From Agathobacter sp. (GTDB taxonomy: Bacteria; Bacillota; Clostridia; Lachnospirales; Lachnospiraceae), in the NCBI GenBank assembly GCA_017409825.1, contig JAFQRZ010000026.1:1-61380 (forward strand): 61,380 nt of DNA, written 5' to 3'. The notes under the pieces are model-generated. The model was not told the origin of the DNA. It saw only the letters and a program-made list of their open reading frames with translations, and ran no database searches. Below, in pieces: positions 31,847-37,243 of the stretch. Both the position numbers and the translations under genes were made by a program. Position 1 is the stretch's first letter. Each line of letters begins with the position of its first letter.

Positions 31847-32353
31847 TTAAATTGTCAGACTATTTAACAAAATGAGCAACTGACTCTTGTTTTCTGTGTA
31901 AATGAGTAGCCCATTAAAGGTTTCAACGATTGTAATATACTTCCCTCGGAAGGTTTCCGTTGTTTCAATGAGATGAATCAGATAGGATTTCATGTAGGAG
32001 TTTACGGAAAGGAAAATCGTGTCCACCTGCTCCATCGGATGAACAGAAACATTTGCCTCTTTTAGAAGCTGGGTAATCTGTTTTTCGTTTTCTAGTTGAG
32101 ATGCAGTTTTGTTTACGATATAAAAACCGTTTTCGTCTTTTGGCATATCCAAGGCTTTGATGGCACGCTGGACTTGTTTGGTCAATGCGTCCGAAGCTGG
32201 GTATAAGGATTCAAAATAATTCATAAAATCAGAAGCAAATCGAAAGTGTTTGTTTCCGCCATTTTCTAAAACTTCTGTCATAAGGATTCGTTTTATAATA
32301 CCTTCGCAGGTCTCTCTGGAAGGATTTTTTCTTAAAGTAGTACTCTGTTCCAT
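31847..32353 (-). CDS. Small ArgR-like protein (possible regulator)
   Basis: The product is 168 aa. The N-terminal half contains LTKQVQRAIKALDMPKDENG, similar in spacing to the recognition helix region of arginine repressors, and the C-terminal half (VDTIFLSVNSYMKSYLIHLI, then NGLLIYTENKSQLLILL) resembles the ArgR oligomerisation fold. The conserved arginine-binding residues are not evident, so it is at best a distant relative. ATG 32353 has AGGAGG 4 nt upstream; an ATG five codons earlier overlaps that site. It is divergent from the AbiE-like pair across 194 bp, so it might control that pair. This is a tentative identification. Confidence 0.4.
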   Translation of the reverse strand: MEQSTTLRKNPSRETCEGIIKRILMTEVLENGGNKHFRFASDFMNYFESLYPASDALTKQVQRAIKALDMPKDENGFYIVNKTASQLENEKQITQLLKEANVSVHPMEQVDTIFLSVNSYMKSYLIHLIETTETFRGKYITIVETFNGLLIYTENKSQLLILLNSLTI

Positions 32354-32547
32354 GGGTCCTCCTGTCATAAAAATCGCTACAGACAATTCTATATGTCTTA
32401 AAAAGATTATAAGACACAGGATGAGAGAAATCAATACAAAAAAGGACAATAATGGAAAAAGAAAATCTGTGTTGACGTGGGCGGGAAATAAGGATAAAAT
32501 GAGGAATATGTACCACTAAACTTTTTATAAGGCGGAAAAAAATACAA

Positions 32548-33171
32548 ATGATTTATAAGAGAACAGAGGAAACAGAACGTATATTAAAAGAGGTATATCA
32601 GTGCATCGATGACAATGGCGGTATTGCGAAGAAGGAACAGTTGGCGGCATTGGGAATCGATTATCGTAGAATTCTGGACTTCGTAGAAAATGACGAGGTA
32701 ATCCGAATTAAGAATGGATACTATACGTATGGCATTGAGCGTTTTTCGGAGGAAGCACTGGTATCGAAGCTTTTTCCAGATGGAGTACTTTGTATGGAAA
32801 GTGCATTGTATGCCTATGGTTACATTTCGCGTAAACCAGTTGGATTTCATGTTGCGATAGATAAGAATACATCGAAATCCAGATTCAAGCTGGATTATCC
32901 AAAGGTAATTCCGTATTACACGGAACCAGAGGTATTGACCATTGGTGTAACAACGATTTCTTATGAAGGATGTGATTTCCAAATTTATGATAAGGATCGT
33001 TTGATTTGTGACTGTTTGAAGTATGAAAGCAAAATGAATCGTGAAGATTTTAAAGAAGCAGTTCAAGCATACATCAAAGACGAGGACAAGGATATCTCGG
33101 CCTTGATGGAATATGCGAGAGAACGCAAGGTGGTAAAAAGAGTACAGAGCCTTATTGGAGTGTGGTTGTAA
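32548..33171 (+). CDS. AbiEi-type antitoxin-like transcriptional regulator
   Basis: This 207-aa protein matches the AbiEi family of type IV toxin-antitoxin systems. An N-terminal winged helix (NGGIAKKEQLAALGIDYRRI, IRIKNGYYTYG) is followed by the AbiEi core (LFPDGVLCMESALYAYGYI, then a Tyr-rich strand region) and a C-terminal helical part with YDKDRLICDCLKYESKM and REDFKEAVQAY. In known systems this protein binds its own promoter. The weak AAGGCGG site lies about 15 nt upstream. The stop overlaps the next gene's ATG by one base (TAATG), as expected for a coupled pair. The partner is unusual (next entry). Confidence 0.78.
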   Translation: MIYKRTEETERILKEVYQCIDDNGGIAKKEQLAALGIDYRRILDFVENDEVIRIKNGYYTYGIERFSEEALVSKLFPDGVLCMESALYAYGYISRKPVGFHVAIDKNTSKSRFKLDYPKVIPYYTEPEVLTIGVTTISYEGCDFQIYDKDRLICDCLKYESKMNREDFKEAVQAYIKDEDKDISALMEYARERKVVKRVQSLIGVWL

Positions 33172-34079
33172 TGAAACTGGGGATGACATTTCCACAAAAA
33201 TGGTTGGACAAATGTGCAAAGGATGAGATACAGGTATCCGACATATTGTATGGATTGGCGATAGAGGATTTATTGCGGCGTATCGAAAGGTCCTCCTTTT
33301 ATGAATATCTGTGGTTAACAAATGAGCAGGCGGTGGGCTTGGAAGCATATAAAAAGAAAAGCAAGGAACGAGTTGCTTTTTTATATGTAGAAAGCGGAAA
33401 GAAAAATTATCTTTCTCATACTGTAGCAGGACAGGCGCTAGACCAGGAGCTGTTTGCACTTTTACTGGAGGAGTTGTTCTGTCACAACGGAGAAGAAGTC
33501 CAATGGGAATATACCGTTGATGAAACAGAAAAAGGCAAATCACTGCATCTTACGTTTTCTTATATGGATATGCAGGTGCCGGTTTCGGTTTACATTGGAA
33601 CCTCTGCGATTCAAACCCAAAAGCGAAAGAAAAAAGAGCTGTCATTGTTATTTGATGAAAGAAAGACCTGTTCATACCTTTGCTATTCGAAAGAAAGTAT
33701 TCTCGCAGAATCACTGTTTGAGATGATGCGTAAGCTGGAATTGATTTCGGATATGGAAGCTTATGGAGAAGCGAATGAAATTCTGAAGAATTATTCCATT
33801 AGCGGTAGATATATTTTAGAAGAGTTTTCTGCCATGGCGGAAAAGGAACCAAAGGTAGCTACGATGAAACGTTTGGAGCAGATTGCTTCCTATAAGAACT
33901 ATGCTTATATGAAGAAACGCTGGCAGCAGTATGAGCGAAGCCAGAACACGGAGAAAGAGGATTGGGAGAGCGTGCTGACGCGAATTCTAAAGTTTATGGG
34001 ACCTGTTTGGAAGGCACTATGTGCAGATGAGATTTTCTTTGATGACTGGATGCCAGAGCTGGAGCGTTTTTTGGGATAG
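33171..34079 (+). CDS. AbiEii-like protein lacking the nucleotidyltransferase motif
   Basis: The product (302 aa) aligns by eye with AbiEii toxins at both ends. The N-terminal VSDILYGLAIEDLLRRIERSSFYEYLWL corresponds to the helices before the active site. The C-terminal ESILAESLFEMMRKLELIS, then LEQIASYKNYAYMKKRWQQYER and ILKFMGPVWKAL correspond to the family's helical half. Where AbiEii has the KGG(x)LL...D-x-D catalytic block, this protein has LTNEQAVGLEAYKKKSKERVAF, with no GS/GG and no paired Asp. Catalysis by the usual route is therefore unlikely. ATG 33171 overlaps the antitoxin stop. It could be an inactivated toxin kept as a co-regulator, or a diverged function. Confidence 0.65.
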   Translation: MKLGMTFPQKWLDKCAKDEIQVSDILYGLAIEDLLRRIERSSFYEYLWLTNEQAVGLEAYKKKSKERVAFLYVESGKKNYLSHTVAGQALDQELFALLLEELFCHNGEEVQWEYTVDETEKGKSLHLTFSYMDMQVPVSVYIGTSAIQTQKRKKKELSLLFDERKTCSYLCYSKESILAESLFEMMRKLELISDMEAYGEANEILKNYSISGRYILEEFSAMAEKEPKVATMKRLEQIASYKNYAYMKKRWQQYERSQNTEKEDWESVLTRILKFMGPVWKALCADEIFFDDWMPELERFLG

Positions 34080-34137: not shown

Positions 34138-34725
34138 ATGGGTAAGATTTTTTGTGTAATGGGAAAAAGTGCGACAGGAAAAGATACCATTTATCAGAAG
34201 CTGTTGAACGAAAGTAAACTGAATTTAAAGAGAATTATTCCATATACGACGAGACCAATCCGAGAAGGAGAAGTTCCAGGGAGAGAATATTATTTCTGTA
34301 CGGAACAGGATGTGCAGAGATTGGAGGAAGAGGGCCGAATCGTAGAGTTACGTGCGTATGATACGGTATACGGAATCTGGAAATATTTTACGGTAGATGA
34401 TGGAAACATCCAATTGGATAAGGAAAATTATATTTTAATCGGAACCTTGGAAGCATATACCAAGATTCGTGATTATTATGGTGCGGAATATGTAGTTCCT
34501 ATTTATATAGAAGTAGAGGATGGGGAACGCCTGCTTCGTGCCATCGCAAGAGAGAAAAGCCAGGATGTTCCAAAATATGAAGAAATGTGTCGTCGTTTCT
34601 TAGCGGATGCAAAGGATTTCTCAGAAGAGAATCTGATTGCAGCAGGTATAGAGAGAAGATTTGTGAATGTAGAGCTTGCAGATACGTTGACGAAAGTCGA
34701 GATGTATTTACAGTCTGAGATGTAG
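34138..34725 (+). CDS. Guanylate kinase-like protein
   Basis: This 195-aa P-loop protein has Walker A GKSATGKDT (residues 9-17) and the nucleobase-site motif TTRPIREGEVPGREYYF as in guanylate kinase, then ELRAYDTVYGIWKYF in the GMP-binding region. The C-terminal lid (LLRAIAREKS, CRRFLADAKDF) is diverged. It could phosphorylate GMP or another nucleotide, or be a non-catalytic relative. It heads the yaaR-holB-ricT cluster where Bacillus has thymidylate kinase (tmk). The chromosome probably has a separate housekeeping gmk. The ATG follows a weak AGGA site. Confidence 0.75.
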   Translation: MGKIFCVMGKSATGKDTIYQKLLNESKLNLKRIIPYTTRPIREGEVPGREYYFCTEQDVQRLEEEGRIVELRAYDTVYGIWKYFTVDDGNIQLDKENYILIGTLEAYTKIRDYYGAEYVVPIYIEVEDGERLLRAIAREKSQDVPKYEEMCRRFLADAKDFSEENLIAAGIERRFVNVELADTLTKVEMYLQSEM

Positions 34726-34745
34726 TCTAAAGGAGGTGGCAGGAC

Positions 34746-35192
34746 ATGGATATGAATATGAAAGTCAATGAAATGACACAGTTAAATCAAGTAAATGAAA
34801 CGCAAAAAGCGGTTCAGGGTGATGGTTCGTTCAAATTTACCTTGTCGAGTGCCATCAGTGACGCTCAGCTTCAAGCGAAAGTCGAATCCCTGATGATGGA
34901 CATCACGACGCAGGGAGAGCGAATTGCGCGCCACATGGATATCCGTGATTTGAAACGATATCGTGGTTTAGTGAAGGAATTTCTAAACGAAGTGGTGTAT
35001 CGTTCGCATAAGTTTTCGCGAGAAAACTTCTTAGATCGACGCGGAAGACATCGTGTTTATGGAATTATCCGAAAGATTGATGAGACTTTGGATGCCTTGG
35101 CAGAGGAATTGGTTGCAGATGAGAAGGATCATCTTGCAATATTGAGTAGAATTGGTGAAATAGAGGGATTACTCTTAGATATTTTCACGTAA
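34746..35192 (+). CDS. yaaR: YaaR family protein (DUF327)
   Basis: This 148-aa, helical, charged protein matches Yaa[43 protein letters not shown], and [22 protein letters not shown]. The function is unknown. It keeps its Bacillus position before holB, 54 nt upstream. An AAAGGAGGTGG site precedes the ATG. Confidence 0.85.
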
Positions 35193-35245
35193 GATGTCCT
35201 ACGAGGATAGGCTTGCAGGAAATGTTGTGAAGGAAGGGAGATAGA

Positions 35246-36235
35246 ATGGCTGGTTTTCAGGAGATTATCGGACACAATCAAATAGTAGAACATCTGAAAA
35301 ATGCCATTCGTATGGAAAAGGTCTCCCATGCGTATATATTGAATGGTGAAAACAATTCTGGGAAGATGATGTTGGCAGAAGCTTTTGCCACAGCATTGCA
35401 GTGTGAAGCTGCAGGAGACGAGTCTTGCATGAATTGCCGCTCTTGTCATCAAGCCGCGGAACACAATCAGCCAGATATTATCTATGTTACCCATGAAAAG
35501 CCAAATGTCATATCGGTAGATGATATTCGCCATCAGTTGAATAATGATATTGTAATTAAACCATATAGCAGTAAGTATAAGATTTACATTGTGGATGAGG
35601 CAGAGAAAATGAACCCTCAGGCACAGAATGCACTTTTAAAAACAATCGAAGAGCCACCTGCCTATGGTGTGATACTGCTTTTAACCACAAATGCGGATAG
35701 TTTTTTGCCTACAATTTTATCCCGTTGTATTACGTTGAACCTAAAAAGTGTAAACGAGGACCTGATAAAAGAACATTTGATGAGAAAATATAAGATTCCA
35801 GACTATCAAGCGGACGTATGCGCTGCTTTTGCACAGGGAAATGTAGGAAAAGCAATCCAGTTGGCATCCTCTGGAGAGTTTAATGAATTAAAAGCAGCCG
35901 CTCTTTCGTTAGTGAAAAAGCTGGACGATATGGATTTGTACGAATTAAATGGATGCATCAAGCAAATAAATGATTATAAATCAAAGATTCAGGAATATTT
36001 CGATTTACTGACACTTTGGTTTCGCGATGTGCTTTATATGAAAGCCACAAACGACGTAAATAATCTCATTTTCAAAGATGAGGCTTATGATATAAAAAAA
36101 CAAGCAGCAAAAAGGTCTTATTCTGGAATAGAAACGATACTACAGGCACTGGAACAGTCCAGAGTACGCTTGAATGCGAACGTAAATTTCGATTTAGTAA
36201 TAGAATTATTGTTGCTAACGATAAAGGAGAACTAA
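35246..36235 (+). CDS. holB: DNA polymerase III subunit delta' (HolB)
   Basis: This 329-aa clamp-loader subunit shows the AAA+ fold with a degenerate Walker A (GENNSGKM), as usual for delta'. The zinc-binding cysteines are in CEAAGDESCMNCRSC, followed by PDIIYVTHEK, VDEAEKMNPQAQNALLKTIEEPP and the SRC motif in ILSRCITL. With DnaX and delta it opens the DnaN ring. ricT starts 3 nt after the stop. Confidence 0.94.
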   Translation: MAGFQEIIGHNQIVEHLKNAIRMEKVSHAYILNGENNSGKMMLAEAFATALQCEAAGDESCMNCRSCHQAAEHNQPDIIYVTHEKPNVISVDDIRHQLNNDIVIKPYSSKYKIYIVDEAEKMNPQAQNALLKTIEEPPAYGVILLLTTNADSFLPTILSRCITLNLKSVNEDLIKEHLMRKYKIPDYQADVCAAFAQGNVGKAIQLASSGEFNELKAAALSLVKKLDDMDLYELNGCIKQINDYKSKIQEYFDLLTLWFRDVLYMKATNDVNNLIFKDEAYDIKKQAAKRSYSGIETILQALEQSRVRLNANVNFDLVIELLLLTIKEN

Positions 36236-36238
36236 AAT

Positions 36239-37243
36239 ATGACAAGAGTAGTTGGAATTCGTTTCCAAAAAGCAGGAAAAATATATTATTTCGATCCATG
36301 CGGTTTCGATTTAGAAACAGGCATGCATGCTATCGTGGAAACCGCGCGTGGTGTGGAAATGGGTACTGTCCTTATTCCGCCAAAGGATGTGGAAGATGAA
36401 AAAGTAATACAGCCATTGAAGCCTGTCATTCGTATTGCGACAGACGAAGATGAGAAAACAATAGAAAAAAACAAGGAAAAAGAGAAGGAAGCCTTTGAGA
36501 TTTGTAAGGAAAAGATTCTGAAACATGGTTTAGAGATGAAACTTGTAAATGCGGAGTATACCTTCGATAATAACAAGCTGCTCTTTTACTTTACAGCAGA
36601 TGGTCGAATCGATTTCCGTGAGTTGGTAAAGGATTTGGCCGCTGTGTTCCGTACGAGAATCGAGCTTCGTCAGATTGGGGTACGTGATGAGACTAAGATT
36701 CTTGGTGGAATCGGTATTTGCGGACGTCCACTCTGCTGCAAGACTTACCTTGCAGACTTCGTTCCTGTATCCATCAAGATGGCAAAGGAACAGAATTTGT
36801 CCTTAAACCCTACCAAAATCTCTGGTGTCTGTGGAAGACTGATGTGCTGCTTGAAAAATGAGCAGGATACTTACGAATACCTGAACAGCAGACTTCCAAA
36901 TGTAGGGGATACGGTATTTGCAAAGGACGGTGCAAAGGGAGAAGTACAGAGTGTTAGTGTACTTCGTCAGCTCGTAAAAGTAGTCATCGATAACGGAGAC
37001 GAGAAAGAATTACGTGAATACAAGGTGGATGAACTTAATTTCCGCCCTAAGAAGCGCAAAGATGTAAAAATTACAGAAGAAGAACTGAAAGAATTAGAAG
37101 GTTTGGAAGATGATGTAGTGGAAGAAGCTACAGAGCAAGAAGAACGTCCAAATCGTAATTACAATAAAGAACGCCACGATGGAAAAGGAAAACGTTATTT
37201 TGGAAAAAACAAAAAACGAAACAACAACCCTTCTGAAAAATAA
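36239..37243 (+). CDS. ricT: RicT/YaaT, PSP1-domain protein (Y-complex subunit)
   Basis: This 334-aa protein has the PSP1 domain (VGIRFQKAGKIYYFDP, ARGVEMGTVLIPPKDV). The cysteine motifs GGIGICGRPLCC and SGVCGRLMCC are the Fe-S ligands reported for the Ric (YaaT-YlbF-YmcA) complex, which stimulates RNase Y maturation and sporulation in Bacillus. A Lys/Asn-rich C-terminal tail (NKERHDGKGKRYFGKNKKRNN) looks disordered. The trmN6-like gene overlaps its 3' end. Confidence 0.93.
   Translation: MTRVVGIRFQKAGKIYYFDPCGFDLETGMHAIVETARGVEMGTVLIPPKDVEDEKVIQPLKPVIRIATDEDEKTIEKNKEKEKEAFEICKEKILKHGLEMKLVNAEYTFDNNKLLFYFTADGRIDFRELVKDLAAVFRTRIELRQIGVRDETKILGGIGICGRPLCCKTYLADFVPVSIKMAKEQNLSLNPTKISGVCGRLMCCLKNEQDTYEYLNSRLPNVGDTVFAKDGAKGEVQSVSVLRQLVKVVIDNGDEKELREYKVDELNFRPKKRKDVKITEEELKELEGLEDDVVEEATEQEERPNRNYNKERHDGKGKRYFGKNKKRNNNPSEK

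Follow-up and report, generated by a model that had tools for sequence, protein, structure and literature searches.

The stretch of DNA analyzed here (hereafter the window) comprises 61,380 nucleotides of contig JAFQRZ010000026.1 from Agathobacter sp. (assembly GCA_017409825.1). It carries two adjacent genes, named EI and EII in this work, which are related to the antitoxin (AbiEi) and toxin (AbiEii) halves of AbiE systems, while EII lacks the nucleotidyltransferase active site. The features of the pair and its surroundings are collected in Table 1.

Table 1. Features of the EI-EII region of the window.
Feature	Position	Strand	Basis or remark
u200, divergent neighbor, weak ArgR/AhrC-like fold	31847..32353	-	found at 14/16 loci and 14/19 regions of the dead type
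sigma-70-type promoter of the pair, TTGACG-N17-TAAAAT	32472..32500	+	consensus scan, 10/12
TACCACT-N13-GGCGGAA, conserved imperfect inverted repeat just 3' of the -10, putative AbiEi operator	32511..32537	+	
EI (gene 1), 207 residues, AbiEi-family antitoxin homologue, winged helix-turn-helix and C-terminal domain	32548..33171	+	
EII (gene 2), 302 residues, AbiEii/MenT-fold protein without nucleotidyltransferase active site	33171..34079	+	
Place of motifs I and II (KGG...DxD), here TNE...RVA, EII residues 50-52 and 67-69	33318..33377	+	alignment with intact relatives
Place of the third catalytic Asp (xDxG), here Y141	33591..33593	+	alignment with intact relatives
EII C-terminal helical domain, residues 173-302, clade signature FFDDWMPELxRFLG, better conserved, kept in fusions	33687..34076	+	
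Place of the motif III Lys (S181) and the motif IV Asp (A197)	33711..33761	+	alignment with intact relatives
gmk, yaaR (DUF327), holB, yaaT, downstream core genes, locus markers	34138..37243	+	gmk and DUF327 named by Pfam

The gene pair and its family relationships

The stop codon of EI (TAA, 33169-33171) and the start codon of EII (ATG, 33171) share one base within TAATG (33169-33173), an overlap that an earlier note on this DNA had described, and both reading frames are intact. An in-frame GTG for EII lies at 33162; the ATG start is preferred since M1 is nearly invariant among relatives. The operon is bicistronic, with the antitoxin half first and the genes touching; the gene order is identical in the relatives, and the closest named relatives of the pair belong to Agathobacter and Roseburia (Lachnospiraceae). 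AbiE of Streptococcus agalactiae is likewise a two-gene operon of both families with an inverted repeat at its promoter (PMC3985639).

EI matched the PADLOC AbiEi model with E 3.3e-64, and profile comparison aligned it with AbiGI (9hlo_A, residues 15-207) and AbiEi (6y8q_A, residues 16-207) at E 8e-25, in agreement with the earlier assignment; its score against Pfam AbiEi_4 (23 bits) was slightly below the cut-off of 25. Judged from its sequence, EI is a winged helix-turn-helix protein with a C-terminal antitoxin domain, as in the antitoxin half of AbiE. EII had no Pfam match, and the Pfam AbiEii family matched nothing across the whole genome. The PADLOC AbiEii model PDLC02311 covered residues 14-302 of EII with E 8.4e-83, and the profile of EII relatives matched AbiGII (9hlo_B) with E 2.4e-8, making the AbiGI-AbiGII structure 9hlo the top sequence-profile match for both halves. 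The AbiGII row of that alignment shows KGG and DxD-like letters, unlike EII of the window; no paper on structure 9hlo was among the matches listed for AbiGII. The predicted structure of EII has the DUF1814/MenT nucleotidyltransferase fold, its top Foldseek match being a MenT3 variant (7c46, E 2e-6) with a TM-score of only 0.53. An unrelated fold was rejected on this structural comparison.

Loss of the catalytic site and shift of constraint

Eighty-nine distinct EII-like proteins, obtained from a scan of GTDB contigs (16 loci) and from genome searches, were aligned with MAFFT. They include 24 intact relatives, which were recruited by similarity to the proteins without the active site (the dead type) and represent near relatives rather than all AbiEii. 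Seven catalytic positions were scored: GG of motif I, DxD of motif II, a third Asp, Lys of motif III and Asp of motif IV. The third Asp was added from our own alignment, and the other positions were matched by motif to the mutants of Dy et al. 2014 (PMC3985639), in which the toxicity of AbiEii is abolished by any one of G49A, D67A, D67E, D69A, D69E, K173A and D192A but not by G50A alone, and in which variants in motifs I, II and IV bind GTP poorly.

EII of the window has none of the seven residues: K-G-G is replaced by T50-N51-E52 and D-x-D by R67-V68-A69, and motifs I-IV, required for toxicity in S. agalactiae, are absent. MenT toxins modify transfer RNA (PMC11375011); against MenT3/TglT (Rv1045) and MenT4 of Mycobacterium tuberculosis, EII shows 8-11% identity and 0 scored catalytic residues. 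Across the 89 proteins the score was 7/7 in 24, 0 in 52, 1 in 11 and 2 in 2, with no intermediates. Two of the 65 dead rows are unusual: L033 is a fusion that lacks the core, so that its score is meaningless, and L035 is off-locus and first-branching. None of the 65 contains a GS/GG...DxD site. The earlier note had claimed that the toxin-like half lacks the catalytic site, and the alignment with 24 intact relatives upholds this, ruling out a mis-registered active site.

The dead proteins have their own characteristic signature, FFxDWMPELxRFL, with W293 (100%), M294 (98%) and D292 (97%) near-invariant. A few acidic residues are well conserved among them (E190 100%, D292 97%, E175 91%, E32 89%), which could be expected if EII were still an enzyme with relocated catalytic residues. 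This is extremely improbable, as E190, E175 and E32 are conserved at 100% in intact AbiEii and are therefore probably structural, no acidic pair was seen replacing DxD, and the fusions described below lack the core.

Loss of the site is conserved across a clade. In a quick IQ-TREE analysis of EII (88 rows, L033 omitted), 64 dead rows form one side of a branch with a Shimodaira-Hasegawa-like approximate likelihood-ratio (SH-aLRT) value of 99; the tree of EI, with 85 rows, likewise places the 63 partners of dead EII on one side of a branch, here with a value of 80. The trees are compatible with one origin of the dead type without proving it, and their inner placements are uncertain owing to long branches. 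Within the window's genus, hand counting gave this EI (E < 1e-90) in 50/62 genomes, dead EII (at E 3e-25 or better) in 51/62 and both in 49; G316 has EI only, and G346 and G349 have EII only. Of the 30 good-quality genus genomes, an EII match is present in 26 and some EI match likewise in 26; in G339, one of the latter, the only EI match is of the other AbiEi type. Of 299 genomes sampled in the family, 19 carry this EI type (E 1.8e-71 or better), and the same 19 carry dead EII, the EII call for G082, G168 and G261 resting on reading of the sequence. An order-level sample gave any match in 77/392 genomes, and the 17 at E 5.7e-51 or better, which are of the dead type, all belong to the family of the window.

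Selection was estimated as the ratio of nonsynonymous to synonymous substitution rates (dN/dS, Nei-Gojobori) in 63 dead EII proteins (L033 and L035 omitted), which gave 73 pairs more than 50% identical, eight of them with dS < 1.5. The values for EII and EI, in that order, were 0.058 and 0.014 (window/L001), 0.033 and 0.005 (L078/L079), 0.076 and 0.037 (L070/L071), 0.217 and 0.112 (L005/L009), 0.241 and 0.077 (L010/L054), 0.211 and 0.120 (L054/L056), 0.232 and 0.067 (L073/L087), and 0.251 and 0 (L019/L080, where dS is 0.02 and changes are too few). These eight pairs place EII under purifying selection, looser than that on EI, with the core loosest in diverged pairs; in the seven pairs with enough changes, dN/dS was 0.02-0.38 in the core and 0.05-0.26 in the C-terminal part. 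Decay or frameshift is ruled out by the intact frames and by dN/dS well under 1, in line with what the earlier note had stated from the frames.

Constraint has also swapped sides, from the toxin half to the antitoxin half. In the dead loci (n = 61; L033 and L035 omitted), EI identity exceeds EII identity in 1830/1830 pairs (means 0.565 vs 0.311), whereas in intact loci (n = 22) it does so in only 11/231 pairs (means 0.522 vs 0.662). Conservation in dead EII is highest over the last 42 residues (mean identity 0.47) and lowest in the core (0.21). Such looseness might mean that EI is the sole functional protein, an autoregulated transcription factor, and that EII is a slowly eroding passenger kept through translational coupling or as a weak folding partner. 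The low mean identity of EII, the free variation of its active-site positions, its dN/dS above that of EI in 8/8 usable pairs (0.03-0.25 vs 0-0.12; EII core up to 0.38) and two species entirely without the EII core would fit this. We nevertheless consider it unlikely, as EII dN/dS is still well under 1, the 51 matches to EII in the genus at E 3e-25 or better all came without a reported internal stop, EII is present in 49/50 genus genomes with this EI (and EI in 49/51 with EII), C-terminal positions are near-invariant, and the C-terminal domain survives in fusions.

Fixed locus, promoter repeat and natural fusions

The gene order in relatives is trmB, dacB, divergent u200, EI, EII, usually speA, then gmk, yaaR, holB and yaaT. 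In the 19 regions L104-L122, dacB was found in 17, u200 in 14, speA in 15 and gmk in 17; the gaps are accounted for by L114 and L119 (without gmk and speA), by contig ends and by loci that gave no u200 match. Distances within the pair track each other and those of a core neighbor (Spearman EI-holB 0.73 in 32 rows, EII-holB 0.80 in 32, EI-EII 0.88 in 35; the rows include two repeats of L002 and L006). The pair differs from S. agalactiae AbiE in sitting at a fixed core locus and in having the antitoxin, not the toxin, as its better conserved half. The exception to the fixed locus is the L035/G082 pair, which sits elsewhere. This off-locus AbiEi/AbiEii-like pair of G082 (region L123, 5035-6524) keeps 1/7 catalytic residues with near-canonical spacing, branches before all other dead proteins and is a possible intermediate.

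The plasmid search gave no match to the pair, and no relative was found among viral contigs. A mobile or phage origin was rejected: the sole strong match in the phage collection, MT837737.1 (L136), is a host fragment with trmB, dacB, EI, EII and speA. The GenBank record of L136 is filed as 'Bacteriophage sp.', though these genes are those of a Lachnospiraceae-type chromosome, not of a phage. A weaker match in the collection, H2, has 21% identity over 53%. These results also bear on the idea that EII acts as a decoy or confers immunity, shielding the cell from active AbiEii or MenT-like enzymes that come from phages or neighbors. EII does resemble active AbiEii, and some genomes with the dead pair (G076, G176, G292 and others) carry a second AbiEii-like gene elsewhere; vertical inheritance alongside core neighbors and the lack of plasmid or viral-contig matches make a decoy very improbable.

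The repeat downstream of the EI promoter has the consensus TACCACT-N13-AGCGGAA, from which the window copy differs by one change. With up to 3 mismatches it was found at 39 of the 62 distinct dead-type EI loci, among them L035 (spacer of 13 in 38 and 14 in 1), and at 3/23 other loci (22 intact and L033), each at 3 mismatches. A similar -35/-10 arrangement precedes it in the relatives inspected; as background, the whole region holds 8 promoter-like sites vs 7.9 in shuffles, no excess. Across the genus, 35/62 genomes gave 43 matches to an exact form; hand sorting placed 26 of these directly at the EI promoter, and a backward control gave 8. Within the own genome, no site other than the EI promoter matches without a mismatch. 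The operator of S. agalactiae AbiE contains TACCAC-N15-GTAGTG (PMC3985639); the window element, written as TACCAC-N15-GCGGAA, shares the left half-site core and the distance, a likeness that may be due to chance.

An RNA hairpin or a Shine-Dalgarno element is disfavored because the half-sites pair imperfectly and because in L028, L030, L031 and L110 the element starts 52-142 bases (ends 25-115) before the first start codon, still after the -10. No wider regulon was seen by sequence, with 17/43 exact genus matches off the EI promoter vs 8 for the backward control, and 35 matches at up to 2 mismatches in the own genome vs 30 for the control. The window holds 4 repeat matches vs 0.3 expected; however, two of the extras lie inside genes, and the other, at 37040-37066, falls within the frame of yaaT. 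Two matches recur on contigs C31 and C34 of the own genome with identical sequence and ~12.5-kb spacing each, which suggests a duplicated region in the assembly.

In G168 (L033/L122, 487 residues) and G693 (L134, 422 residues), EI, a linker and the EII C-terminal domain form one open frame without the nucleotidyltransferase core. Both fusions occupy the usual locus, with u200, speA, gmk, yaaR, holB and yaaT present. Six genomes of the fusion genus were compared: two have the fusion, G696 has broken pieces with an internal stop, and three (65-76% complete) gave no match. Assembly error is unlikely because two species carry fusions with different linkers. The fusions are the strongest hint that EI and the EII C-terminal domain function jointly and that the core is open to loss; they point to a minimal functional unit and offer a ready construct for structure work.

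The fusions further weigh against EII still being a toxin that acts without nucleotide transfer, for example by binding transfer RNA or another target, with EI as its antitoxin. The operon order, the overlap and the EI C-terminal domain are typical of a toxin-antitoxin pair, and EII has kept the fold. Yet the core is absent in the fusions, and the pair sits at a fixed locus, as most accessory toxin-antitoxin pairs do not. The positions in motifs I-IV at which single changes abolish AbiEii toxicity (PMC3985639) are gone in EII, and a non-enzymatic toxin appears improbable.

A possible regulatory role and the neighboring genes

We favor, with moderate confidence, the reading that EII is a former toxin repurposed in a Lachnospiraceae clade as the non-enzymatic partner or regulator of an autoregulating EI. 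An AbiE-type system would have been captured, probably once, by the ancestor of this clade at the core locus trmB-dacB-u200 / EI-EII / [speA]-gmk-yaaR-holB-yaaT. EII would then have lost its nucleotidyltransferase active site while keeping the fold, above all the C-terminal helical domain. EI, its winged helix and C-terminal domain kept, would most likely use the TACCACT-N13-AGCGGAA repeat to repress its own promoter, and EII may bind EI through its C-terminal domain and modulate repression, the former catalytic pocket possibly serving as a ligand or protein sensor. The data show the loss of all scored catalytic residues, the predicted fold, clade conservation, the fixed locus, purifying selection, the constraint swap, the promoter-linked repeat and the core-less fusions; we infer EI-EII binding, autorepression, loss of toxicity and a sensor role, with the own operon as the minimum regulatory scope.

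The earlier note had offered either a repurposed regulatory complex or a different toxic mechanism. The former is the best fit, given the autoregulatory-type repeat, the constraint moved to the antitoxin half and the fusions of AbiEi with the AbiEii C-terminal domain; in favor of the latter nothing was found. AbiEi of Mesorhizobium huakuii, described as a broad transcriptional regulator, provides a precedent, and the AbiEii of that species slows growth in E. coli (PMC8436566), whereas the toxin half in the window has no active site.

Several observations weigh against the favored reading. The EII core is the least constrained part of the pair (dN/dS 0.02-0.38 vs 0.005-0.12 for EI in seven pairs) and is missing from the fusions, which together disfavor an essential sensor there. 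EII is not essential, since 4/30 good-quality genus genomes have none. With up to 3 mismatches allowed, 23/62 dead-type loci gave no match to the repeat, and pattern searches of the genus and the own genome found no target other than the pair's own promoter. The link to speA is weak, as no speA homologue was found in the genome of the window, in a search made without a positive control. We regard a more specific version as tentative: a toxin-antitoxin system might have been captured as a core regulator in a clade of gut commensals, AbiEi and the pseudo-toxin forming an obligate transcription-factor complex in which the former nucleotidyltransferase pocket senses a ligand or protein; in some species the remnant of the toxin would have become a covalent domain of AbiEi, with u200 (ArgR-like) and speA hinting at an arginine or polyamine signal.

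If the favored reading holds, the pair would be a clean and testable example of how a toxin-antitoxin system can become part of the housekeeping machinery, in which the enzyme was lost, fold and partner were kept, and selection moved to the antitoxin. No title or abstract start describing a conserved catalytically dead AbiEii was found in the literature searched; subscription papers lay outside this scope, and the evidence of absence is weak. Although related to AbiE by descent, the pair was not filed as an AbiE toxin-antitoxin system because it lacks the catalytic motifs. PDLC02311 was the best match of six dead proteins tested (E 1e-43 to 2e-99), while PDLC02288 was best for two intact relatives; because PDLC02311 matches dead proteins this strongly, surveys of defense systems may score dead loci as AbiE defense.

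Regarding the neighboring genes, the two last of the downstream series are those we take to be holB and yaaT. The commonest downstream gene in relatives, speA, encodes an Orn/Lys/Arg decarboxylase (Pfam); the locus is without it in the window as well as in L001 (= L104) and L105, its two closest relatives, and 0.7-1.3 kb are inserted between EII and speA in several relatives. Insertions at the otherwise fixed locus, with names given from reading of the sequence, include a large ATPase-like gene after speA (L005, 6338-7918), a GGDEF-type gene between u200 and EI (L008, 3190-4272) and an ABC-transporter set between EII and speA (L133, 7145-9700). u200 had no Pfam match above the cut-off and no PDB profile match. 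In the u200-side half of the intergenic region (~32370-32470 of the window), repeated GACA/TGTC boxes around a TGTCTTATAAT-like -10 were seen by eye, here and in many relatives; they are a putative second operator set, for u200.
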